Source: Saccharomonospora piscinae (GTDB taxonomy: Bacteria; Actinomycetota; Actinomycetes; Mycobacteriales; Pseudonocardiaceae). From it: a stretch of DNA of 33,109 nucleotides. The position numbers and the translations under genes are program-made. Of the stretch, positions 929-30,628 are shown in pieces. The stretch is taken from the NCBI RefSeq assembly GCF_005862235.1, contig NZ_VCEK01000008.1:1-33109 (forward strand), written 5' to 3'. Position 1 is the stretch's first letter. Every line of letters begins with the position of its first letter. The notes under the pieces are model-generated. The model had not been told where the DNA came from. It saw nothing but the letters and a program-made list of their open reading frames with translations, and made no database searches.

Positions 929-1225
929 GTGTCTTCATTGTCCACGCCCACGGTGGCCGGTGACCAGTCCTGGCACGCCAGCGCGGTGTGCGCCCAAACC
1001 GATCCTGAGCTGTTCTTCCCCGAGAGCGGGCAGAACAGCGGCACCGCGAAAGCCGTGTGCCACAGCTGCCCGGTCAGCGCCGAGTGCCTGGCTGAGGCGC
1101 TGGCCCGCGGTGAGCGGTTCGGGGTGTGGGGCGGGCTCTCCGCGCGAGATCGGCGCCCACTGCGACGCCAGCATCAGCAGGCCGCCATCGAGCGGTGGGC
1201 CGACAGCATCGGTGGTGACCGGTGA
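929..1225 (+). CDS. WhiB-family iron-sulfur transcription factor
   Basis: This is a 98-residue Wbl protein. It shows the family's four cysteines: one in the N-terminal AVCAQTDPELFFP segment, then the CHSCPVSAEC cluster (C-x2-C-x5-C). The family turn motif follows (FGVWGG) and then a basic C-terminal segment (RDRRPLRRQH). Wbl proteins bind a [4Fe-4S] cluster and act with the principal sigma factor; versions on phages and plasmids often interfere with host regulation. The start is GTG at 929, set by GGAGGG at 917-922. Its stop overlaps the methyltransferase start by four bases, so the two are translationally coupled. It probably regulates this operon or host genes; the target cannot be read from the sequence. 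Confidence 0.93.
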   Translation: MSSLSTPTVAGDQSWHASAVCAQTDPELFFPESGQNSGTAKAVCHSCPVSAECLAEALARGERFGVWGGLSARDRRPLRRQHQQAAIERWADSIGGDR

Positions 1226-2745
1226 TCACCGTGACGGACCTGTTCTGCGGCGCCGGCGGCTCCGGTCTCGGCGCCACCGCCGTGCCGGGTGTGGAGCTGT
1301 ACCTCGCCGCGAACCACTCCCCGCGGGCGATCGAGACCCACGCCGCGAACTTCCCCGACTGCTTGCACGACTGCGCCGACATCTCCCAGGTCGAGCCCCG
1401 CCGCTACCGCCGCAGCAACATTCTCTGGGCCAGCCCCGAATGCACCTCGCACAGCATCGCCAGGGGCAAAAGAGCACCGGGGCAGCCGGACTTGTTCGGC
1501 AGCGCGCCCGACCCGCTGGCCGAGCGCAGTAGGGCGACGATGTGGGACGTCCCGCGGTTCGCGGAGGTGCACCGCTACGACGCGGTGATCGTGGAGAACG
1601 TCGTCGACGCCGTGAAGTGGGAGCCGTTTCGGGCGTGGCTGATGGCGATGGACGCCTACGGCTACCACCACAAGATCGTCAGCCTGAACTCGATGCACGC
1701 CCCGGCGATCGCCGCGCCCCGCGCACCCCAGTCCAGGGACCGGATGTACGTCGTGTTCTGGCGCAAAGGCAACACCGCGCCCGATCTCGACATCCGCCCG
1801 GCCGCCTGGTGCCCGACGTGCGACGCCGAGGTCCGCGCCATGCAGTCGTGGAAAAACGGCCGCACCGTCGGCCGGTACCGGCAGCAGTACATCTACCGCT
1901 GCCCCAACGTCTCCTGCCGCAACAGCATCGTCGAGCCCTACGCGCTCCCGGCCGCCGCCGCGATCGACTGGGCCCTGCCCGGCCAGCGCATCGGCGACCG
2001 CGACAAACCCCTTTCGGCCAAGACACTCGCCCGCATCAAGGCGGGGCTCGAGCGCTACGCGGGCGCGCAGCTCGTCCCAGCAGGCGGCACCTGGAACGAC
2101 ACCTCGTACCCGCCGAGCGACCCGTTCCGCACCCTCACCACCCGCGAGACGCACGGACTGCTCGTCCCCGTCGAGGGCCGCGACGGCAAGCAAGCCACGC
2201 ACGTGGCGACGCCGATGCGGACCCAGACCGCCCGGCACGAGACCGCACTCGTGGTGCCCTACTACGGCACCGCCGAAACCGCCCGCCCCGCCAGCGAACC
2301 CGTCGGCGCGCTCACCACCCACGACCGCTACGGGCTCGCGTTCATCGCCGAGCTACGCGGCGGAGGCAGCGACGCCCGACACGTGAAGGAGCCCCTGGCC
2401 ACGGTGTGCGCGTCGGGCAACCACCACATGCTCGTCCGCCACAACACTGCGCGCGGCAACCCCGGACAGATGTGTACGCCAGCCGTCGAGCCCGCTCGCA
2501 CGCTCACCACCGCCGGGCACCAGTCGCTCGTCGGCTGGCCACACGAGACCCCTGACGTCAAGGACTGCACCTTCCGGATGCTCGCCGTCCACGAGATCCA
2601 GGCCGCGATGGCGTTCACCCCCGACTACCAGCTCACCGGCAGCAAGCGCGAGCAAGTCCGCCAGCTCGGCAACGGGGTCACCCCGCCGGCAGCGGAGTTC
2701 TTGATCCGCTCCGTCGTCAACTCCTTGGAAGGGACCGACCAGTGA
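1222..2745 (+). CDS. DNA (cytosine-5) methyltransferase
   Basis: This 507-residue enzyme shows the C5-methyltransferase motifs in order. The SAM-binding motif is DLFCGAGGSG (residues 6-15). The catalytic Pro-Cys motif is SPECTSHS (Cys about 74; P-E-C in place of the usual PPC). ENV is at about 125-127, QSRDRMYVVF at about 170-179, and the C-terminal QLGNGVTPPAAEF motif closes the fold. Two Cys pairs (about 197/200 and 227/232) form a probable zinc ribbon within a long insertion before the target-recognition region. It would methylate cytosine in a specific DNA sequence. No endonuclease partner is adjacent, so a solitary phage/plasmid methylase protecting the element from host restriction is the likeliest role. 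It overlaps its neighbours by 4 bp on both sides (GTGA junctions). Confidence 0.93.
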   Translation: MITVTDLFCGAGGSGLGATAVPGVELYLAANHSPRAIETHAANFPDCLHDCADISQVEPRRYRRSNILWASPECTSHSIARGKRAPGQPDLFGSAPDPLAERSRATMWDVPRFAEVHRYDAVIVENVVDAVKWEPFRAWLMAMDAYGYHHKIVSLNSMHAPAIAAPRAPQSRDRMYVVFWRKGNTAPDLDIRPAAWCPTCDAEVRAMQSWKNGRTVGRYRQQYIYRCPNVSCRNSIVEPYALPAAAAIDWALPGQRIGDRDKPLSAKTLARIKAGLERYAGAQLVPAGGTWNDTSYPPSDPFRTLTTRETHGLLVPVEGRDGKQATHVATPMRTQTARHETALVVPYYGTAETARPASEPVGALTTHDRYGLAFIAELRGGGSDARHVKEPLATVCASGNHHMLVRHNTARGNPGQMCTPAVEPARTLTTAGHQSLVGWPHETPDVKDCTFRMLAVHEIQAAMAFTPDYQLTGSKREQVRQLGNGVTPPAAEFLIRSVVNSLEGTDQ

Positions 2746-8045: not shown

Positions 8046-9212
8046 TCATTCGATGCCCCAGTCGGCGTTGCCGGCCGCGAGGGATGCCGACACGGTGTAG
8101 GCGCCGGAGGATGCCAGGCGTGCGGCGTCGGCGAGGTAGCGCTGGGTGGTGGTCAGGCTGGCGTGCCCGAGGTCGTTGCGGATCTGCTCGACGTGGACTC
8201 CCATCGCCGCGGCGTGCACGGCGTAGAAGCGGCGGCACTGGTGGGGGTGGATCGACCCGCGGATCGGGGCGAGTTCAGCGGCCGCGCGGCGGGCCTGCGG
8301 GGTCGTGCCCTTGCGCTCAGCGATCCGGCACAGCCGGGACAGCGTTTGCCGCACCTGTGCCGGCGTGAGGGGCTTGTCGGTGCGGGCGGCGATGAACAGG
8401 GTTTCGTGGCCTCGGCCGCGGCCGGAGGTGTGGCCGGCCACGGTGACCTCGGTTCCGGCGTCGGCCTGGTCGCGTTCGATGAGGTGGGCCTCGACCGAGG
8501 CCAGGGCCGCGTCGGTCAACCGGAGCTGGCGGGTCCGGCCGCCTTTGCCGTGCACGGTGAGCACGCCCTCGCGGCCGGTGCGGTCGATGCTGCCGCGAGT
8601 CAGCGCGCACAGCTCCGCGGCGCGGAGGCCGGTCGACAGCAGCAGCTCGACCATCGCGACGTTGCGCAGCCGGGTCGGCGTCGAGTCCAGTCGCGCCGAC
8701 AGGCGTAGGGCCTGCGCCTGTTCGTAGGTGAGCGCGTGCGTCGGCGAGGACGGCGACGGGGAGCTGATGCCGTGGGCCTTGCGTTCGTCGGTGTCGAGCA
8801 CCTCGGCCATCACGACGTCGGTGAGGCCGCGCTTGCGCATCTCGCGGTACCAGGCAGCGATGGCACCGGCGTAGGACTGGATGGTGGCGTCGGTGCCGCC
8901 GAACTCGCGGATGGTGGCTACCCACGCGCGCATGACATCGACGGTGACGTCGGTGAGCGGGTTCAGACCATGGGACCGGCACCAGGTGAACCACGCGTAG
9001 GAGGGGGTCGGCTTCGCCGCGTTCGGCCGCGTGGTCGGCCCGCGCCAGGTCTGGCGCTCGCGCGGGATGCCCAGGCGGGTGGCGTAGGCGGTCTTGGTGT
9101 GATCCGAGCGGCGGGCCATGAGCCAGCTCATCGTCGGGGCGGCGACGCGTTCGGTCCAGTGGTCGGCGTCGACGTGCTCGACGGTGGCGGTGTGGGGGGC
9201 CAGAGCGGTCAC
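8046..9212 (-). CDS. Tyrosine recombinase/integrase (XerC/D-like)
   Basis: This 388-residue protein starts with GTG after GGGAGAA. The N-terminal core-binding domain spans about 20-135 (WFTWCRSHGLNP, IAAWYREMRKRG). The catalytic domain has R197 (STGLRAAEL), K223 (HGKGGRTRQLRL), H324 and R327 (HPHQCRRFYAVH), H350 (LGH) and Y359 (TTTQRYL), so the active-site set looks complete. It catalyses site-specific strand exchange through a covalent 3'-phosphotyrosine link. Plausible jobs are resolving plasmid multimers or integrating the element. A 26-bp palindrome with recombinase-core geometry lies 30 bp upstream of its start. Size and motifs are typical of the family. Confidence 0.93.
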   Translation of the reverse strand: MTALAPHTATVEHVDADHWTERVAAPTMSWLMARRSDHTKTAYATRLGIPRERQTWRGPTTRPNAAKPTPSYAWFTWCRSHGLNPLTDVTVDVMRAWVATIREFGGTDATIQSYAGAIAAWYREMRKRGLTDVVMAEVLDTDERKAHGISSPSPSSPTHALTYEQAQALRLSARLDSTPTRLRNVAMVELLLSTGLRAAELCALTRGSIDRTGREGVLTVHGKGGRTRQLRLTDAALASVEAHLIERDQADAGTEVTVAGHTSGRGRGHETLFIAARTDKPLTPAQVRQTLSRLCRIAERKGTTPQARRAAAELAPIRGSIHPHQCRRFYAVHAAAMGVHVEQIRNDLGHASLTTTQRYLADAARLASSGAYTVSASLAAGNADWGIE

Positions 9213-19245: not shown

Positions 19246-19580
19246 TCAGTCGGCGTGATCCGGGCGCGTTTGGGTCGGAGGGCGGCGATGTCGGCCGGTG
19301 CGGGCCGGTCGCCGGCGGTGACCTTGCGGACGCCGACGTTCTCGGCGGACGTGCTGACCAGTTCGGCCGGGTCGGTGGCGAAGATGTCGCACAAGGCGGC
19401 GAGGACTTGGAGCGAGAGTCGTTCCGGAACGCTGGTCACCAGCCGGTGGACCTGCGACACCGAGAGGTGGATGCCGCGCTCGCGCAGCGGCTCTACCAGG
19501 TCGGTGGTGTGGAACATGCCGTGCTCGGCCATCACCTCGCGCAGCCGCCAGGTGTAGGTGACCGTCCGCTTCTTGGTCAT
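19242..19580 (-). CDS. XRE-type HTH protein of the recombinase trio, 112 aa
   Basis: ATG 19580 overlaps the recombinase stop, and its own stop overlaps the next start (ATGA on both sides). This fixes a short gene nested in a longer open frame. Residues about 10-75 form a Cro/C1-type helix-turn-helix: WRLREVMAEHGMF, VEPLRERGIHLSVSQVHRLV, LSLQVLAALCDIFATDPAEL. A basic tail follows (ALRPKRARITPTE). Such a small HTH between two recombinases is a recurring actinobacterial arrangement; it probably represses the trio or directs the recombinases to their site. Confidence 0.85.
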   Translation of the reverse strand: MTKKRTVTYTWRLREVMAEHGMFHTTDLVEPLRERGIHLSVSQVHRLVTSVPERLSLQVLAALCDIFATDPAELVSTSAENVGVRKVTAGDRPAPADIAALRPKRARITPTE

Positions 19581-20710
19581 CGCCGTGGTGCCTCTCCCGT
19601 GCTCGCCGTGCCCAGGGCCTCGGCCATCGTGGTGTCCAGAACCCGCCGCAAGGTGCGTGTGCGGTAGTCCGAGGACACGCAGGTGTAGATCGCCAGGGTG
19701 CTCGCGTAGTCGTGCCCGACCTGCTCCTGCACGAACCGGGCGTCGAAGCCGTCCTCGATGAGGTGCGTGACGTACGAGCGGCGCAGCGAATGCAAGTCCA
19801 ACACCGGGTCCAGGCCCAGCTCCTCGCGGTAAGTCGCGAAGCGATGGTGCAGCTGCCAGCAGCCGACACGGAGCCCGCGCTCGGACGGCCACGCCGCTGG
19901 GTTGTTGTCGCGCTCGAACAGCGGACGCACTTCGGTGAACCACTGCTCCAGAGTTTCCGCTGTCCAGGTCCACACGCACAGCACGCCGCGGCGTTTCGGC
20001 GGGGAGCCCTTCCTGGCCTTGCCGTACCGGACCTGGCAGACGCCGTAGTCGCCGAACTCCGGGCCGTACGGGTTGCGGCTGAAGTCGGCCGCGTCGAGCA
20101 TCCTCAGCTCGTTGCGGCGCAGGCCGAATCCGTAGCAGATCTTGAACATCGTCACGTCCCGGAACGCCGACAGCCAGCCCTTGCGCCCCAACGCCCGTTT
20201 CCGTGCGATCTCCTCGTCGGCGTGGTCGAAGAGCGCCTGCAACTCCTCGCGGGTGAACGCCCGCTTGCGCGGATTCGTCTCCGACTCCTCGACGTGCGCC
20301 GCGGCGTTGGCCTCGGTGATGACCTGCACCGGATGCGTTCCGAACCGCTTCTCGCACTCCGCGGCCCAGCCGTATGCCGGGTCCACGATGAAGTTGCAGA
20401 ACCCGCGCATCGCGCCCTGATAGCCCCGGACAGTGCTCGTCGCGCAATGGTTGACCGCGCGAAGGTCGGCGAACCACTCGTCGACCAGTTGCAGTGTCCA
20501 CAGCCACGGGTACACCTCGACCTGCTTGAAGAACCGCTCCACGCGGCGAACCTGCGCTTCCACCGTCCCGTGCGCGAGGTTGCGTGCCAGCTGCTGGTTG
20601 CGCCAGCCGTCCAGCATCGCGGTGAAGACCTGCTCCTCCGGATGCAACAACGGCACCCCGGAGGCCAGATGCAGCCCCGCAGAACCGGCCAACCTCCGCT
20701 GATCACTCAC
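19577..20710 (-). CDS. Tyrosine recombinase/integrase, first gene of the trio
   Basis: This 377-residue protein has an N-terminal core-binding domain (about 27-115) and a complete-looking catalytic domain: R198/R199 (YGFGLRRNELRML), a Lys-rich beta-hairpin (YGKARKGSPPKRRG), H307 and R310 (LHSLRRSYVTHL), H333 (VGH) and Y342 (LAIYTCV). It is the likely active member of the trio. A mobile cassette or recombination module is the usual context. Two identical palindromes (20751, 20912) lie upstream of its start and are candidates for operators or binding arms. Confidence 0.92.
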   Translation of the reverse strand: MSDQRRLAGSAGLHLASGVPLLHPEEQVFTAMLDGWRNQQLARNLAHGTVEAQVRRVERFFKQVEVYPWLWTLQLVDEWFADLRAVNHCATSTVRGYQGAMRGFCNFIVDPAYGWAAECEKRFGTHPVQVITEANAAAHVEESETNPRKRAFTREELQALFDHADEEIARKRALGRKGWLSAFRDVTMFKICYGFGLRRNELRMLDAADFSRNPYGPEFGDYGVCQVRYGKARKGSPPKRRGVLCVWTWTAETLEQWFTEVRPLFERDNNPAAWPSERGLRVGCWQLHHRFATYREELGLDPVLDLHSLRRSYVTHLIEDGFDARFVQEQVGHDYASTLAIYTCVSSDYRTRTLRRVLDTTMAEALGTASTGEAPRR

Positions 20711-20926: not shown

Positions 20927-21468
20927 TATCACCGGGAAGCACTCCGAGTGCAAGAGGTGCTGTGGGAAATCGGACGGGTAGGACGGGCAGCGGGGCGGCA
21001 GGCTTGCCGTCTCCCAACGCAGCCCGGCCCGGCAGTCCTAGCGTGCCCCCGCGGGGCCGCGTGCGGACACGGCTCCCCGGACGCGGCGGGCCGCCCGCAT
21101 AGGCACACCCGGCGCGCCAGTTCGCGCCCATCGCCGCGAGGGAGCCGCCGGGGGAGCCGCGGGGTTGGGAGGGAGTTTTCCCTGTGCCCTCCCTCGCTCG
21201 GCTCCCTCGGGCCGACCTGCGCGAGAACCTCCGTCAAGGGAGTCAAGGGAGATCGTTCGACACCGCCAGAAGACGCGGTCCAGGAGCGGGTTTCCGGCGG
21301 ATCGATGCGACGCCTCCCTACGCCCGGTGAGGCACTCTTCGCCGCCCGGTGCGCGGAGCAAGATAGGACCAAGAGGCACTTTGGTCGTGGCATGGTCAAC
21401 GACGACATCGCTGCCGGTTCGAGGTGGGGAGACCTCGGGCCGGCGGGCCGACGACGAAGGGGACGGCC

Positions 21469-21915
21469 ATGACGGAGCAGGACACGGTCTGGGGTGGCAC
21501 GCGGCCGCGGTCGGCGGCGCGGTATCGCGACCGGGTGTGGAGACAGCCGGCGCGGCGCCCGCGGGGACGGCTGCGCTACACCGACACCGAGTGGGCGGTG
21601 ATCTGCCGGGTCGCGGCCGCAGCCGGGATGCGGCCGGGCGCGTGGGCGCAGCAGGCCGCATCCGAAGTGGCCGTGGCTGTCGACCGGGGCCGCCCCCTGG
21701 ACCGTGACGTGGTCGACGCGCTCGTCGCCGAGCTGCTCGAGCACCGCCGCGTCATGGCCAACATCGGCGGCAACGTCAACCAGCTCGCCACGGCCGCGAA
21801 CACGGCAGGCTACGCCGAGGCCGCGCTGGCCGCTGGGGAGCTGCTGCGCCTGGTACGCCGGGTGATCCTCGGATCCGAACAACTCGCCAGCGACCTCCGC
21901 CGCGCGCTGCTGTGA
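21469..21915 (+). CDS. MobC-like relaxosome accessory protein, 148 aa
   Basis: I start it at ATG 21469, with GAAGGGGA at 21456-21463; an in-frame extension to 21424 is less likely. The N-terminus is basic (RPRSAARYRDRVWRQPARRP). A ribbon-helix-helix-like stretch follows (LRYTDTEWAVICRVAAAAGM). The MobC signature is HRRVMANIGGNVNQLATAAN (about residues 92-111), followed by a helical C-terminus. MobC proteins help the relaxase open DNA at oriT. No relaxase gene follows in this window; a small membrane protein does. The element may use a relaxase encoded elsewhere. Confidence 0.78.
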   Translation: MTEQDTVWGGTRPRSAARYRDRVWRQPARRPRGRLRYTDTEWAVICRVAAAAGMRPGAWAQQAASEVAVAVDRGRPLDRDVVDALVAELLEHRRVMANIGGNVNQLATAANTAGYAEAALAAGELLRLVRRVILGSEQLASDLRRALL

Positions 21916-25389: not shown

Positions 25390-26061
25390 ATGCCCAAAAT
25401 CCACGTCGTCGTCAGCCAGAAGGGCGGAGTCGGCAAGACCACCCTGGCGGTCAACATCGCCGCCATCGTCTCCGACGTCCTCGGCGGCAACCCCGAACAA
25501 CCACCCGTGCTCGTGGCCTCCATCGACCCCCAAGCCTCCGCCGTGTGGTGGGCCGAACGCGGCGACCCCGACGCCTTGCCGTTCGACTTCGACCAGCTCG
25601 ACGACCGCCCCGAAGAAGTCGCGAAACTCGGCGACCTGCACGAATACCAGCACATCTTCGTCGACGCCCCCGGCTCCCTGGCCAGGCCCACCGTGCTGGC
25701 ACGCGCCCTCGACGTCGCCACCGACGCGATCGTGCCCGTCATCCCCGAACCACTCGCCTACGGCCCCACCGAGCGCACCGTGCTCGACCTCATCCAGCCG
25801 CGCGATCTGCCCTACCGCATCGTGCGCAACCTCTGGGACCGCCGCGACGGCCACCTCGACCTCGACGCCCTCACCGACTGGCTCGACGAGCAGAAACTCC
25901 GCTACACCAACACCATCGTCCGCCGGTACAAGATGCACACCACCGCCGCCGCCGAAGGCCGTGTCGTCACCCAGTACCCCAACGGCCGCACCGCCACCGA
26001 AGCCCGCAACGACTTCCTCGCCCTGGCGCTGGAGCTCGGCTACGGCGGGACGGTGGCCTGA
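25390..26061 (+). CDS. parA: ParA-family partition ATPase
   Basis: This 223-residue protein starts at ATG 25390 after GGAGGACA. The deviant Walker A motif is KGGVGKTT (residues 11-18). The switch I region is SIDPQASAVWW and Walker B is IFVDAPGSL. The C-terminal part binds DNA non-specifically in the family. It is at the short end for ParA and has no N-terminal HTH, so it resembles type Ib or small plasmid ParA proteins. ParA forms ATP-dependent gradients on the nucleoid that move ParB-parS complexes. It overlaps parB by one base (TGATG), so the two are coupled. Confidence 0.95.
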   Translation: MPKIHVVVSQKGGVGKTTLAVNIAAIVSDVLGGNPEQPPVLVASIDPQASAVWWAERGDPDALPFDFDQLDDRPEEVAKLGDLHEYQHIFVDAPGSLARPTVLARALDVATDAIVPVIPEPLAYGPTERTVLDLIQPRDLPYRIVRNLWDRRDGHLDLDALTDWLDEQKLRYTNTIVRRYKMHTTAAAEGRVVTQYPNGRTATEARNDFLALALELGYGGTVA

Positions 26062-27041
26062 TGGGACGCCGCCGCCGCATCGAGGGCTCCGCCCTGGCCA
26101 CCACCAGCGCCCCCGCGACCGTGCCGGTCACCTCGATCGCCCACAACCCCCGCAACCCCCGCGACGACTACGACGACGTCGGCGAGCTCGCCGACTCCAT
26201 CCGCGAAGTCGGCGTCCTGCAGCCCATCGGCGTCGTGCGCTACGAGGTCTACCTCTCGCACTACCCCGACCACGAACTCGAGGTCGGCACCTGTGACTGG
26301 GTCGCCCTCAACGGCAACCGCCGCCTGGCCGCCGCCCGACGTGCCGGCGTCGACGAGATCCCGGTCCACGTGCTCGACCGGCTCGGCCGCGAGGATCACC
26401 TCGACGAGTCCGTTCTCATCGAGAACATCCACCGCGAGCAGCTGCCCCCGCTGCGGGAGGCACAGGCGATCCGGCTGCTGGTGGACCGGCACGGCTCCCA
26501 ACGCGCCGTGGCCAAACGGATCGGCAAGTCCCAGGGCTACATCTCCCAACGCCTCTCCCTGCTGAAGCTGACCCCGCAGCTGCAGGACGCGTTGCGCTCC
26601 GGGCAGATGACCGTCGAAGACGCCCGACGCGTCGCCGCGCTCCCAGCCGAAGAGCAGCAGGAAAGCTGGCAGCGGATCCAGTCCGGTGACTACGCCGTAA
26701 TCACCCCGGCACCCGCCCCGCCGGCCGCGCCGCCCGTCGACGACCACGCGCCAAGTGATTACGGCGTAATCACCCACGACCCCCCTGTCGGCGAAGACAC
26801 GCCCCGCGCCGGCGGCCGCGGCGGCACAGGTGATTACGCCGTAATCACCCCGGGCTCCACCAACGGGCACCACACCAACGACGCGTTCGGTGATTACGGC
26901 GTAATCACCCAGCCCCCGCCCGCACCAGCCCGCGAGCACCGCACCATCGCTGTCGACAGCCCCCAGCAGGTCGCCTCCGCGCTGCGCCAGCACTTCACCA
27001 CCCCCCAACTCGAGGAACTGGCCCAGCTCCTCCTCAACTGA
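26061..27041 (+). CDS. parB: ParB-family partition protein carrying palindromic sites in its gene
   Basis: This is a 326-residue protein. The N-terminal ParB/Srx-like domain (about 15-135) includes NPRNPRD, the CTP-binding-type region with GNRRLAAARRAG, and ENIHREQLPPLREAQAI. It contains a short insertion (YEVYLSHYPDHELEV). A central HTH follows (about 145-185, SQRAVAKRIGKSQGYISQRL). The C-terminal third is a Pro-rich linker interrupted four times by GDYAVIT or DYGVIT. A predicted dimerisation segment ends the protein (VASALRQHFTTPQLEELAQL). The four heptapeptides are encoded by near-identical 19-bp palindromes, likely the DNA sites ParB binds. Confidence 0.93.
   Translation: MGRRRRIEGSALATTSAPATVPVTSIAHNPRNPRDDYDDVGELADSIREVGVLQPIGVVRYEVYLSHYPDHELEVGTCDWVALNGNRRLAAARRAGVDEIPVHVLDRLGREDHLDESVLIENIHREQLPPLREAQAIRLLVDRHGSQRAVAKRIGKSQGYISQRLSLLKLTPQLQDALRSGQMTVEDARRVAALPAEEQQESWQRIQSGDYAVITPAPAPPAAPPVDDHAPSDYGVITHDPPVGEDTPRAGGRGGTGDYAVITPGSTNGHHTNDAFGDYGVITQPPPAPAREHRTIAVDSPQQVASALRQHFTTPQLEELAQLLLN
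26686..26704. promoter_or_regulatory. parS-like palindrome 1 inside parB
   Basis: GTGACTACGCCGTAATCAC; one base differs from the perfect palindrome. Encodes GDYAVIT. Confidence 0.7.
26755..26773. promoter_or_regulatory. parS-like palindrome 2 inside parB
   Basis: GTGATTACGGCGTAATCAC, perfect nine-base arms with central G. It encodes SDYGVIT and starts 69 bp after copy 1. Confidence 0.75.
26830..26848. promoter_or_regulatory. parS-like palindrome 3 inside parB
   Basis: GTGATTACGCCGTAATCAC, perfect, extending to 21 bp with one more G/C pair. It encodes GDYAVIT and starts 75 bp after copy 2. Confidence 0.75.
26890..26908. promoter_or_regulatory. parS-like palindrome 4 inside parB
   Basis: GTGATTACGGCGTAATCAC, perfect, extending to 21 bp. 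It encodes GDYGVIT and starts 60 bp after copy 3. Confidence 0.75.
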
Positions 27042-27048
27042 ACCACCC

Positions 27049-27096
27049 GGGTGATGGGCCCGAAGCCACCCACCTACCGCTCCGCGCCCATCACCC
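27049..27096 (+). terminator. Inverted repeat after parB
   Basis: GGGTGATGGGC (27049-27059) pairs exactly with GCCCATCACCC (27086-27096) across a 26-base loop. It starts eight bases after the parB stop. No T-run follows; it may instead mark the edge of the tnpB insertion. Confidence 0.45.
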
Positions 27097-27191
27097 GCCT
27101 TCCCCACGCCGCACATCACCGGTTCTGTCGGACCCCGCCGCTACCCTCCACTCCCGCACGAACCACCGGGGCGCGACAGCAGGGGGGCGCG

Positions 27192-28676
27192 ATGTCGAGC
27201 GGCACCACAGCTCGCCGCATGCGCGCCTACCGCTTCACCCTCGACCCCACCCGCACCCAACTCGACACACTCGCCCAACACGCAGGCGCCGCGCGATGGG
27301 CCTACAACCACGCGCTGGCCACCAAACTCGACGCGCTCCGGCGACGCCAGCTCCAAATCGACGAGCTGGTCACCCTCGGCCTCACCGAGCAACAAGCCCG
27401 CCGCGACGCCACCGTCACGGTGCCCAGCAAGCCGCAAGTGCAGAAGCGGTGGAACCAGCTCAAAGGCGACACCACCCGCGGCGGCGACGGGATCTGCCCC
27501 TGGTGGCGGGCCGTGTCGACCTACGCCTTCCAGTCAGCGTTCCTCGACGCGGACCGGGCCTGGAAGAACTGGATGGACTCCCTCACCGGCAAACGCGCCG
27601 GCCGCCGCGTCGGCGCACCCCGGTTCAAGAAGAAGGGCCGCTGCCGCGACAGCTTCCGCCTGCACCACGCCGTCAACGACCCCACCATCCGACTCGAGGG
27701 CTACCGCCGCCTGCGGATGCCCCGCCTCGGCAGCATCCGCCTGCACGACTCCGGCAAACGCCTCGCCCGCGCCCTCGCCCGCGGCGGCCGAGTCCAATCC
27801 GTCACCGTCTCCCGCGGCGGACACCGCTGGTACGCCTCCGTACTCGTCGACGAACCCGACCACACCCCCGGCCGCGAAACCCAACACCGCCCCAGCCGCG
27901 CACAACACACCGCCGGCGGCGTCGGCGTCGACGTCGGCGTGCACCACCTGGCCGCCCTGTCCACCGGCGAAACCCTCGACAACCCCCGCCACCTCCACCA
28001 CGCCCACACCCGACTGGTCAAAGCCCAGCGAGCCCTGGCCCGCACCCAGAAAGGCTCCCACCGCCGACGCCGCGCCGCCGAACGCGTCGGCCGCCTACAC
28101 CACCAACTCGCCGAACGACGCGCCTCCCACCTCCACACCATCACCAAACGCCTGGCCACCCAGCACGCCCTGGTCGCCGTCGAAGACCTCAACGTGCAGG
28201 GCATGACCCGCACCGCGCGCGGCACCCTCACCCAACCCGGCCGCAACGTACGCGCCAAAGCCGGACTCAACCGCGCCATCCTCGACGCCGCACCCGGCGA
28301 ACTACGACGCCAACTCGAATACAAGGCTTCCTGGTACGGATCCACACTCGCCGTGTGCGACCGGTGGGCCCCCACCAGCAAGACGTGCTCGACCTGCGGG
28401 ACAGTGAAAACCAAACTGCCCCTGTCGACGCGCGTGTACCGCTGCGACACCTGCGGGATGGTGTGCGACCGCGACATCAACGCCGCACGCAACATCCTCA
28501 AGGACGCAGACCCCGTCGCCCCTGGAAGAGGGGAGACGCTAAACGCCTGTGGAGGACCCGTAAGCCCATCAGCGCCACACGCGCCGACGGCAAGGCCCAG
28601 CGAAGCAGGAAGACCGGGCCACCCAGCCCGGTCACCACGGGGGAACGATCCCCCGTCCACCCCCAAAACGGAGTGA
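27192..28676 (+). CDS. tnpB: TnpB (IS200/IS605- or IS607-type) RNA-guided nuclease
   Basis: This is a 494-residue protein. I start at ATG 27192 (AGGGGGGCG upstream), followed by the conserved MRAYRFTLDPT opening. The N-terminal helical part includes WAYNHALATKLDAL and SAFLDADRAWKNW. The RuvC-like nuclease has all three acidic residues: D247 (GVGVDVGVHHL), E331 (LVAVEDLNVQGM) and D428 (CDRDINAARNIL). The zinc finger is intact (C399/C402 in TCSTCG, C418/C421 in RCDTCG). TnpB cuts DNA guided by an omega RNA made from the 3' end of its own gene and the flanking transposon end. The tail after D428 (GETLNACGGPVSPSAP) is the usual stretch overlapping that RNA. No TnpA transposase is adjacent. Confidence 0.92.
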   Translation: MSSGTTARRMRAYRFTLDPTRTQLDTLAQHAGAARWAYNHALATKLDALRRRQLQIDELVTLGLTEQQARRDATVTVPSKPQVQKRWNQLKGDTTRGGDGICPWWRAVSTYAFQSAFLDADRAWKNWMDSLTGKRAGRRVGAPRFKKKGRCRDSFRLHHAVNDPTIRLEGYRRLRMPRLGSIRLHDSGKRLARALARGGRVQSVTVSRGGHRWYASVLVDEPDHTPGRETQHRPSRAQHTAGGVGVDVGVHHLAALSTGETLDNPRHLHHAHTRLVKAQRALARTQKGSHRRRRAAERVGRLHHQLAERRASHLHTITKRLATQHALVAVEDLNVQGMTRTARGTLTQPGRNVRAKAGLNRAILDAAPGELRRQLEYKASWYGSTLAVCDRWAPTSKTCSTCGTVKTKLPLSTRVYRCDTCGMVCDRDINAARNILKDADPVAPGRGETLNACGGPVSPSAPHAPTARPSEAGRPGHPARSPRGNDPPSTPKTE

Positions 28677-28708: not shown

Positions 28709-28720
28709 AGGTCAAGAAGC

Positions 28721-29243
28721 ATCGGCCCCGCGCACGCGGGGGTGTGGTCCCCACACGACACCACAGAGAAGTTCCTAACTCTGATCGGCCCCGCGCACGC
28801 GGGGGTGGTCCGATCCGCCTGGACGCGATCCGGTCGAAGGACGGATCGGCCCCGCGCACGCGGGGGTGGTCCGACGAACAAGAAACCACCCTCCTCCCCC
28901 CAACCCCCCGTCGGCCCCGCGCACGCGGGGGTGGTCCCGTGTGCATCTCCTCGACTGTGTGTGGCCGGCCGGGAGTGGCCCCGCGCACGCGGGGGTGGTC
29001 CGCGATTGCGTCTGCTGTTCGCGCGAGCAGTCGCCTGTCGGCCCCGCGCACGCGGGGGTGGTCCGAGTCCTCCCTCCTTCTGATCGAGAGTGACCCCGTC
29101 GGCCCCGCGCACGCGGGAGTGGTCCCTCCTGCTCATCCACGCGGCCGACGTGTGGGCAGTCGGCCCCGCACACGCAGGGGGTTCGGAAGAAACGATGTCC
29201 ACGATGCCGATGCCCGAGTCGGCCCGCACGCAGGCGAGGTCGG
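28721..29243 (+). CRISPR. Type I-E-like CRISPR array without cas genes
   Basis: Seven well-conserved 28-base repeats start at 28721, 28784, 28845, 28910, 28974, 29037 and 29098. Two decayed repeats follow at 29159 and 29218. The repeat core is CCCCGCGCACGCGGGG, a stable stem, and the 5' and 3' ends (GTCGG and GTGGTCC) suit the type I-E pattern. Eight spacers of 31-37 bases separate them, all different. Decay at the right end places the leader side on the left, against tnpB. The first repeat carries an extra GT. No cas gene is present in the window, so activity would need a host type I-E system. The last repeat ends 15 bp from the dnaB stop. Confidence 0.95.
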
Positions 29244-29257
29244 AACAGCGGCGGATC

Positions 29258-30628
29258 TCAGCCCCGCGCCAGGCTCGTCACTCGCTGGTAGTGAGGCTGG
29301 TACGTCACGGTGACCTTGGTGTCGCGGCGGCCGTGCCGGTTCTTCGCGAGCAGGATGTCCAACTCACCGCCGCGACCTTCGGATTCTTCTGGCAGGTGCA
29401 ACAGCAGCACATTCGCCGAGTCCTGTTCGATGTCGCCGGACTCACGCAGGTCCACCAGTCGCGGCTCGCGGCCTTCCGCGTCGCGATTGAGCTGGTGCAC
29501 GACAAGCATGTGCACCTCGAACTCGGACGCCAACGCCCGAAGCGCCTGCATGGTCTCCGCCAACTCGAGCTGCCGTCGTTCGTAGCGCTGGGTGGCTCGC
29601 ATGATGCCGAGGTAGTCCACTACAACCAGGCCCGGCGCCTCGTGGCTGGACCTTTCACAGTTCTTGATCAGCCAGCGCAGCCGGTGCCGTAGGTGGGTCA
29701 CGCTGATCGCGGAGGCGTAGTCGGTGAACAGCGGCGCTCCGGCGAGCTTGTCCTTGGCCTGTTGGAGTCGCCGCAGGTCGTCGTCGCTCAACAGGCCGGG
29801 ACGCACGAGCGCTTCGTGCTGGACCCGTGCCTGTGCCGCCAGAGTGCGGCGCACCATCTGCGTCTTGGACATTTCCAGCGCAGCGAAGAACACCGGGATG
29901 CGGCAGTTGACTGCGACGTGCTGGGCGATCGTCGATGCCACCATCGACTTGCCCACGCTCGTGCGGGCAGCCAGCGTCGTCACGTCACCCGGCTCCATGA
30001 TCAGCTGGTCATCGAGGTCCGTGAGACCGGTGGCGAACCGGGGAGGCTGTGGGTCGAGCAAGTCGGCCCACACCTCGTCCACGTCGTCGGCAAGGGACTG
30101 GACGACATCCTGCTCCTGGCCGCTGTCGAGGGAGGCCAACGCCTCGGTCGCATAGTCGACCGCGCTGGCAAGCAAGTCACCGTCCCACGCTCGCGCCGCG
30201 GCGCGCTGGATGAGGTTCTGGCCGATCTCGTGCATACGGCGCCGGTGAGCGTCGTTCACCACGCCGTTGGCCAACGTCTCGGCCGCGCTGGCGTTGGTGG
30301 CCACCTCCAGCAGTTCGAGAACGTAGCCGCCGCCTCCGACCCTCTCCAGCTCCTCACGGCGGAACAGCTCGTTGACCAGCACCGTGGGGTCGACGGACTG
30401 GTGCTGTCCGAGGATGTCGACGCACGCGGCAGCGATCGCGGCGTGAGCAGGGCGGTGGAATGCTTTCGGCTGGCAGATGTCGAGCAAACGAGCGCCCACC
30501 CCGGTGGGGTGATCGAGGCGCCCTTCAGCGAGCACGGTGCCGAGGACCGCGCGCTCGGCGTGAACGATCTCGTCAGGGGCGTCCCAAGTGTTCATGTCGC
30601 TGGTGTGGGGCATCCTGGTGATGGACAT
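29258..30628 (-). CDS. dnaB: DnaB-like replicative helicase
   Basis: This is a 456-residue protein, starting at ATG 30628 with GGAGAGA upstream. The N-terminal DnaB domain (about 20-130) contains ERAVLGTVL and FHRPAHAAIAAAC. The RecA-like C-terminal domain has Walker A AARTSVGKS (about 220-228), the FFAALEMSKTQMVRR segment, Walker B VVVDYLGIM, then LVVHQLNRDAEGREP, SGDIEQDSANVLLL and ILLAKNRHG, all in DnaB order. It would unwind the replication fork as a hexamer. Together with the probable initiator upstream it forms the replication module. Length matches bacterial and plasmid DnaB proteins. Confidence 0.94.
   Translation of the reverse strand: MSITRMPHTSDMNTWDAPDEIVHAERAVLGTVLAEGRLDHPTGVGARLLDICQPKAFHRPAHAAIAAACVDILGQHQSVDPTVLVNELFRREELERVGGGGYVLELLEVATNASAAETLANGVVNDAHRRRMHEIGQNLIQRAAARAWDGDLLASAVDYATEALASLDSGQEQDVVQSLADDVDEVWADLLDPQPPRFATGLTDLDDQLIMEPGDVTTLAARTSVGKSMVASTIAQHVAVNCRIPVFFAALEMSKTQMVRRTLAAQARVQHEALVRPGLLSDDDLRRLQQAKDKLAGAPLFTDYASAISVTHLRHRLRWLIKNCERSSHEAPGLVVVDYLGIMRATQRYERRQLELAETMQALRALASEFEVHMLVVHQLNRDAEGREPRLVDLRESGDIEQDSANVLLLHLPEESEGRGGELDILLAKNRHGRRDTKVTVTYQPHYQRVTSLARG

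Follow-up and report, generated by a model that had tools for sequence, protein, structure and literature searches.

The window, which is the whole stretch of DNA analysed here, is an entire contig of 33,109 bp (C10) from an assembly of 4.9 Mb. It contains a parA gene (25390..26061, + strand) predicted to encode a ParA-family ATPase of 223 aa (Pfam AAA_31, 1.9e-8; CbiA, 1.6e-6). The end of parA overlaps the start of parB (26061..27041, + strand), and the predicted ParB is 326 aa long (ParB_N, 5.9e-12; HTH_ParB, 1.2e-15). With a ParA ATPase gene adjoining parB, and with both ParB_N and HTH_ParB in its product, the locus appears to be a ParABS system of the type-I HTH-ParB kind. The PDB relatives of this ParB are Spo0J (1.6e-22), Noc, ParB and KorB, and its closest relatives are actinobacterial. 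One other HTH_ParB protein is encoded in the genome, on contig C4.

ParB_N occupies residues 20-124 and HTH_ParB residues 126-211, followed by a low-confidence linker (approximately 208-300) and C-terminal helices (301-325). In an AlphaFold2 model (mean pLDDT 76, pTM 0.50), an N-terminal domain precedes an HTH whose recognition helix spans residues 158-169; a low-confidence stretch and two C-terminal helices follow. The codons for S157-Q158-G159, where the recognition helix starts, are at 26529..26537 (+), and the codon for E186 is at 26616..26618 (+). In alignments, Q158 and E186 correspond to R173 and G201 of Caulobacter ParB, with the numbering set by the residues named in PMC7383237.

We found four parS-like palindromes of the form GTGATTACG-N-CGTAATCAC in the parB frame, in the linker region. 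The 19-mer is GTGATTACGNCGTAATCAC and its half-site is ATTACG. Copy 1 (26686..26704, +) has a single change (GTGACTACG) and reads GDYAVIT. Copy 2 (26755..26773, +) is a perfect palindrome of 19 bp and reads SDYGVIT. Copies 3 (26829..26849, +; 19-mer from 26830) and 4 (26889..26909, +; 19-mer from 26890) are perfect over 21 bp and read GDYAVIT and GDYGVIT, respectively. The start-to-start spacings are 69, 75 and 60 bp. All of this agrees with an initial annotation of the DNA, which had described four in-frame linker copies with these spacings, this degree of perfection and the change in copy 1. The annotation had also judged the palindrome to be unlike the chromosomal parS consensus, and it is: the half-site is ATTACG, and Gln158 stands where the canonical ParB has an Arg (residue 173). 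The canonical chromosomal parS half-site is GTTTCAC.

The encoded peptides, [GS]DY[AG]VIT, span ParB residues 209 to 283. Copies 2-4 fall in the lowest part of the structural model (block means of 38-48 pLDDT), and copy 1 is at the start of that stretch (65). Measured from codon 158 (at 26532), the sites are 154-376 bp downstream, with their starts at 154-358 bp.

Dinucleotide shuffling, repeated 100 times, gave no chance match even when three mismatches were tolerated. Across the 4.9 Mb assembly there was no 19-mer outside parB with two or fewer mismatches, and raising the limit to three added a single match, with 3 mismatches. The 13-bp core was perfect in the window only; one further site with one mismatch was found on contig C4. 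None of 60 related genomes had the 19-mer with at most one mismatch. We looked for an overlap between the ends of contig C10 and found none, so further sites could lie on plasmid DNA that was not assembled.

Several other features surround parAB. Directly past the parB stop is an inverted repeat with 19-nt arms (89% complementary; 27048-27097), possibly a terminator. A TnpB/OrfB_IS605-type gene with a Cas12f1-like TNB domain lies 3' of parB (27195-28676, +), and just downstream of it is a CRISPR-like array (28714-29180) of eight GC-rich repeats of ~29 nt, 61-65 bp apart, with the core CGGCCCCGCGCACGCGGGGGTGG. A gene for a DnaB-like replicative helicase (29258-30628, -) is near parAB. On two Pseudonocardia plasmids (L076 and L077), dnaB adjoins parB, and two copies of the palindrome GATAACCnGGTTATC lie between both genes. 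Elsewhere in the window are genes for two tyrosine recombinases and for a C-5 cytosine methylase, together with a NikA/MobC-like match that is weak and below the cut-off (these four features are at 8046-9212 (-), 19577-20710 (-), 1222-2745 (+) and 21424-21915 (+)).

Codon use and reading frames at the palindromes

We found that the palindromes are written in codons that the two genes otherwise avoid, as the initial annotation had noted for parB. GTA is used in all four sites (4/4) and nowhere else in parA and parB. GGT and AGT are also absent from both genes outside the sites. GAT encodes Asp in 3/4 sites, versus 2/41 of the Asp codons outside. Given the peptide, the summed log10 P of the codon choice is -19.8, with codons taken as independent.

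On either strand, one frame of the full 19-mer is closed by a TAA and a second by a TGA. A gene that crosses the 19-mer is therefore confined to the third frame, which encodes [GS]DYxVIT or a close variant that depends on the outer bases. It might nevertheless be argued that the GDYxVIT peptide itself is selected, for example as a partner-binding motif in the linker, and that the palindromes merely follow; the peptide does recur four times. The rare codons speak against this, and so do the linkers of the 120 ParBs surveyed below. These linkers contained 132 peptides of the site-encoded kind, of which 126 were on a perfect palindrome and 6 on a palindrome with one mismatch; none (0/132) lacked the palindrome. 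One DYVVI peptide in the conserved core, with three mismatches, is not a site. The initial annotation had named a peptide kept without its palindrome in relatives as evidence against its proposal. We found no such case in the 132, and the reverse, a palindrome with another peptide, does occur.

Sites of one class, ATCACGnCGTGAT, were read in two frames across parB genes, giving 27 LSRRD-like copies and 10 YHAVI-like copies, and a later set of loci contained further copies in both frames. One parB gene (L229) has its own site in two frames. Among 104 spacings between neighbouring intragenic copies (134 loci), the only one that was not a multiple of three was 61 bp, between the two copies in L229. 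In addition, kin of the window ParB have different peptides with different sites, and identical sites also occur outside parB. At the level of the sequences compared, selection for the peptide is already contradicted, and we regard it as exceedingly improbable. Judged by the linker test, the two-frame reading of ATCACGnCGTGAT and the rare codons, selection is on the DNA of the sites, with the peptide a likely by-product, as had been proposed from the window.

One proposed signal was not borne out. The alternation of the centre base (C, G, C, G) had been taken as part of the pattern. When neighbouring C/G centres inside parB were compared across 134 surveyed loci, they agreed in 70 cases and differed in 31. 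The alternation carries no signal because the centre base only shows the strand from which a symmetric site is read.

Palindromes in related ParB loci

We scanned for the exact 19-mer in one genome per species and obtained 66 stretches, mostly from Streptomyces; one IMG/VR contig added two more. A ParB match was present in 38 of these 68 motif loci (2.3-10.7 kb). The remaining 30, three Haloarcula loci included, had no ParB match within their stretches. The Haloarcula loci (L013, L019 and L044) each contain one exact 19-mer, with identical flanking triplets. In the six motif loci whose frames were inspected, copies in long frames read DYxVIT, and all 34 intragenic ATTACG copies of the survey described below share that frame. 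Of 40 motif-chosen loci with a readable ParB (including two added plasmid loci), 38 had SQG at 157-159 together with D or E at 186. Of ten whole genomes or records, most had their copies of the 13-bp core on one contig within ~10 kb, among the matches listed. Among those same matches, one genome (G960) had one stray core copy, and a virus record of 104 kb (G956) had four over 80 kb.

A Streptomyces plasmid (L079) has copies inside parB, downstream of parB and upstream of parA. This arrangement bears on whether ParB binds such sites mainly to control its own operon, by road-block or autorepression, with the true centromere elsewhere. Operon control would fit the position of the window sites inside the parAB operon, and KorB, a relative of this ParB, is a repressor. 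Against it, the sites of the L079 plasmid flank parAB on either side as well as lying in parB, an arrangement that resembles a partition complex, and the assembly-wide scan gave no second location for the 19-mer at two or fewer mismatches. Furthermore, on the Streptomyces coelicolor plasmid SCP1, the available part of the report describes ChIP-seq signal that spreads from parS, with one site inside each parB (PMC13245405). We consider operon control as the main role of the sites unlikely.

We searched for ParB loci irrespective of the motif. In the window's family there were 8 genomes with a match among 150, and in the phylum 8 among 396, the window's own genome included in both; in the genus taken to be Streptomyces 269 of 392 genomes had a match, many near the threshold. 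The survey comprised 120 loci including the window, many of them related to one another; 11 overlap the earlier motif loci, and one locus (L178) was left out because it had no ParB frame. Each was scanned for repeated perfect palindromes, blind to any known site. With approximate E-values, 111/120 loci had a palindrome family at E <= 0.05, and 105/120 had an odd-centred, AT-rich repeated palindrome. After dinucleotide shuffling, 0/120 loci had an odd-centred AT-rich family and 2/120 had any family. Two Amycolatopsis relatives (L074 and L075) had no evident repeated site.

The palindromes were concentrated in the parB linker. At least one copy was inside parB in 84 of the 105 loci, and in 15 of 105 all copies found within ~3 kb either side were inside it. 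Intragenic copies numbered 163/516, versus 83 expected under an even spread, and the linker held 161 of the 163. The median distance from codon 158 in the survey was 250 bp. Spacings of 39 or 60 bp were the commonest in intragenic arrays. In L205, L216, L224, L185 and L283 the parB linkers have arrays of 4-12 sites, again mostly at intervals of 39 or 60 bp, which suggests that such arrays grew by duplication.

Covariation of ParB residues and half-sites

The survey contained 16 types of half-site, and we found that the palindrome sequence tracks ParB residues 158, 159 and 186. A recognition helix starting with SQG went with ATTACG, T[PA]A with TTAAC[GC], SQM with AAAAC[CG], TQ[AP] with ATAAC[GC], SS[GP] with CT[TA]AC[CG] and TNG with TTTACC; a helix continuing ISSKL went with ATCACG. 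Gln158 was paired with A at base 1 without exception in the 105 loci (52:0 versus 0:25 when collapsed at 90% identity), and the pairing persisted after collapse at 50% identity (p = 4.9e-7). Within a cluster of 29 ParBs, residue 186 was the only column that perfectly split G6 from C6. The nearest survey relative of the window ParB (L225; 74% identity over the core when the helix is left out) combines TNG with the half-site TTTACC and has the site TTTACCnGGTAAA in parB, and a ParB that is 56% identical (L226) has SQG and ATTACG.

In 148 loci with an assigned site, residue 158 fit base 1 in 147 (one exception) and residue 159 fit bases 2-3 in 142 (six exceptions). Lys or Arg at 186 went with C6 in 26/26, and other residues went with G6 in 119/122 (three exceptions). 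A perfect site was inside parB in 120 of the 148, in 1 to 12 copies, and 28 had none there. We also built a 148-tip ParB tree without the specificity residues. Residue and base changed on the same branch in 5/5 cases for 158 and base 1, 10/11 for 159 and bases 2-3, and 9/9 for 186 and base 6; these are raw counts with no null model, and total base changes on the tree were 6, 12 and 12, respectively. When ParB columns were scored against parS class by plain mutual information, the HTH did not stand out. That measure is confounded by ancestry, and we therefore used collapsed clusters and same-branch changes.

The grouping by residue 159 was made post hoc, after the survey, and the rules for 158 and 186 match contacts published earlier. 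According to the available text of PMC7383237, A1 is preferred when residue 173 is Gln and C6 when residue 201 is Arg, a Lys at position 179 or 184 has a permissive effect, and Gln at the 158-equivalent contacts A1 in Noc-NBS. The window ParB has Q158, R164, K169 and E186. By alignment, residues 158 and 186 follow the published ParB/Noc specificity contacts. Some Arg186 ParBs have sites with a 2-bp centre, also inside parB: TTTACC-GC-GGTAAA in L236, L274 and L282, and TATACC-GC-GGTATA in L278-L280.

The DNA-reading residues of ParB and the sites change together, which often allows a site to be predicted from its ParB. We fixed a residue-to-base rule before reading 39 further loci from the genus search. 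A significant palindrome family was present in 32 of these, and the exact six bases were predicted in 26/32; always guessing the commonest class would score 18/32. Four of the 39 loci overlapped earlier motif loci, all predicted correctly; without them the score was 22/28, versus 14 by guessing. For loci whose nearest survey ParB was less than 80% identical, the rule was exact in 5/11, or 7/11 if a 2-bp centre is allowed. One ParB (L276) has both SQG and K186, which never occurred together in the survey. The rule predicted ATTACC, and the locus has three perfect copies, one of them in parB; its nearest survey ParB (86% identical) has ATTACG.

The rule missed in six loci. In L274 and L282 the predicted arm is present but surrounds a 2-bp centre. 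Three loci are true misses, at base 6 in L252 and at bases 2-3 in L261 and L278. In L255 the sole family is weak and of another sequence. The remaining 7/39 loci had no significant palindrome family. Three of these seven (L247, L259 and L281), and L207 and L210 of the survey, have an SQG helix and no ATTACG site with at most one mismatch in their stretches.

Eight loci with a TQG ParB lack a repeated AT-rich family. Each contains a single perfect copy of the predicted site, ATTACGnCGTAAT, and it lies within parB, 3' of the HTH codons. GC-rich families had been candidate sites in this clade and were dropped in favor of the single perfect ATTACG site per parB. These ParBs (L125, L127, L129-L132, L135 and L144) are ~50% identical to that of the window. 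Two of the loci (L125 and L129) are perhaps integrated elements since they are in the middle of contigs 7.9 and 10.3 Mb long.

The covariation and the predictions weigh on two other accounts of the palindromes. They could act as hairpins in the parB transcript. None of 200 shuffles folded as well as the region itself (z of -5.9), but such folding is expected of any perfect palindrome. The palindromes also occur outside parB, and their sequence follows the residues with which ParB is expected to read DNA, which makes a role as RNA hairpins very improbable. Alternatively, another DNA-binding protein or a self-spreading palindromic repeat could account for the copies. The evenly spaced arrays in relatives hint at duplication, and the 30 motif loci with no ParB in their 2.3-10.7 kb stretches also fit such an account. 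Duplication may explain the origin of the sites but not their retention. Against this account stand the covariation of half-sites with DNA-reading residues of ParB and their prediction from ParB alone. We give this possibility hardly any weight.

Proposed intragenic parS sites and known partition systems

Our results are best explained if the four palindromes are parS sites of the plasmid's own type-I HTH-ParB, arrayed in the linker region of parB. We place the probability of this reading at roughly 0.93. An intragenic parS array had been suggested from the window alone, and comparison with relatives, through the residue-base covariation and half-site prediction, lends that suggestion strong support as far as sequences can.

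We infer that ParB would load at the sites through its HTH, with Q158 matched to A1, residue 159 setting bases 2-3 and E186 matched to G6. Loaded ParB would then close into a CTP clamp and slide onto neighbouring plasmid DNA, and ParA would move the ParB-loaded DNA, giving the sites a role in segregation. The GDYxVIT-type peptide would be a by-product since the linker tolerates the peptide forced by the frames of the 19-mer. Because one short stretch of DNA carries both key and lock, a recombination event could move the specificity as a unit; the short distance between the helix codons and the sites hints at an advantage of such linkage.

It seems reasonably likely, although less so than the reading of the window itself, that this extends to a large group of ParBs from actinobacterial plasmids, including some that are chromosomally located. 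In this group, codons of the linker would serve as the centromere, and residues 158, 159 and 186 would spell most of the half-site, so that parS could be read from the protein. Embedding would let recombination move specificities and so diversify partition compatibility, and the peptide would be a fossil of the site.

In this segment, a DNA site largely dictates the amino acids of the protein that should bind it, which makes it an unusually plain example of a cis-acting site superimposed on coding sequence. More than 100 putative natural ParB-parS pairs also emerge from the analysis, and the simple rule that relates residue to base in them matches published co-crystal contacts at two positions. 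If the interpretation is correct, centromeres and plasmid incompatibility could be predicted from sequence alone, and the evolution of DNA-binding specificity could be studied with key and lock physically linked. Among the open-licence papers listed, our searches brought up neither a multi-site parS that is wholly intragenic nor a residue code for plasmid ParB-parS, and matches of literature text to the letters of the site, among those listed, were unrelated.

Intragenic parS sites are themselves known. The initial annotation held that plasmid centromeres usually lie outside genes. That generalization needs correcting, given the precedent of SCP1, and the position of all four window copies within parB stands. 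In the part of the SCP1 report available, ParABS1 and ParABS2 of S. coelicolor (Nucleic Acids Res 2026) each have a parS inside parB1 or parB2, and the intragenic parS was silently recoded for complementation (PMC13245405). SCP1 and the window have in common a plasmid type-I HTH-ParB with a short inverted repeat inside parB, which is parS in SCP1 and putative parS in the window. The SCP1 parS sites are given there as 13 bp and as 19 bp with a 15-bp core, the 19-bp inverted repeat being parS2, and are compared here with the window 19-mer by length and form. The excerpt describes three sites per SCP1 system around the operon, one of them internal, whereas all four sites detected in the window are inside parB. 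What appears to be new is a putative centromere of several sites, all of those detected lying within parB, among ParBs from which parS is often readable.

The parS-359 site of Bacillus subtilis differs in sequence from the window site. It lies inside parB (spo0J), as do the window sites, according to the accessible text of PMC4442127; parS-359 is chromosomal, whereas the window sites belong to a plasmid. A similar overlap with coding DNA is described for Pseudomonas aeruginosa, where parS sites inside reading frames were silently mutagenised (PMC4368675). Those sites are chromosomal, and the portion of that paper available does not place them in parB.

The closest parallel for the residue code is the work on Noc-NBS and Caulobacter ParB-parS, in which, from the available text, the equivalent of residue 158 (Gln in Noc, R173 in ParB) reads base 1 and the equivalent of residue 186 (G201 in ParB, Arg in Noc) reads base 6 (PMC7383237). 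Those systems and our survey agree in pairing Gln with A1 and a basic residue with C6. The published work concerns two specificities of chromosomal proteins, whereas the survey contains 16 types of half-site. A third tracking position, residue 159 for bases 2-3, sets the surveyed ParBs apart from Noc and Caulobacter ParB, as does the odd, 1-bp centre of most of their sites.
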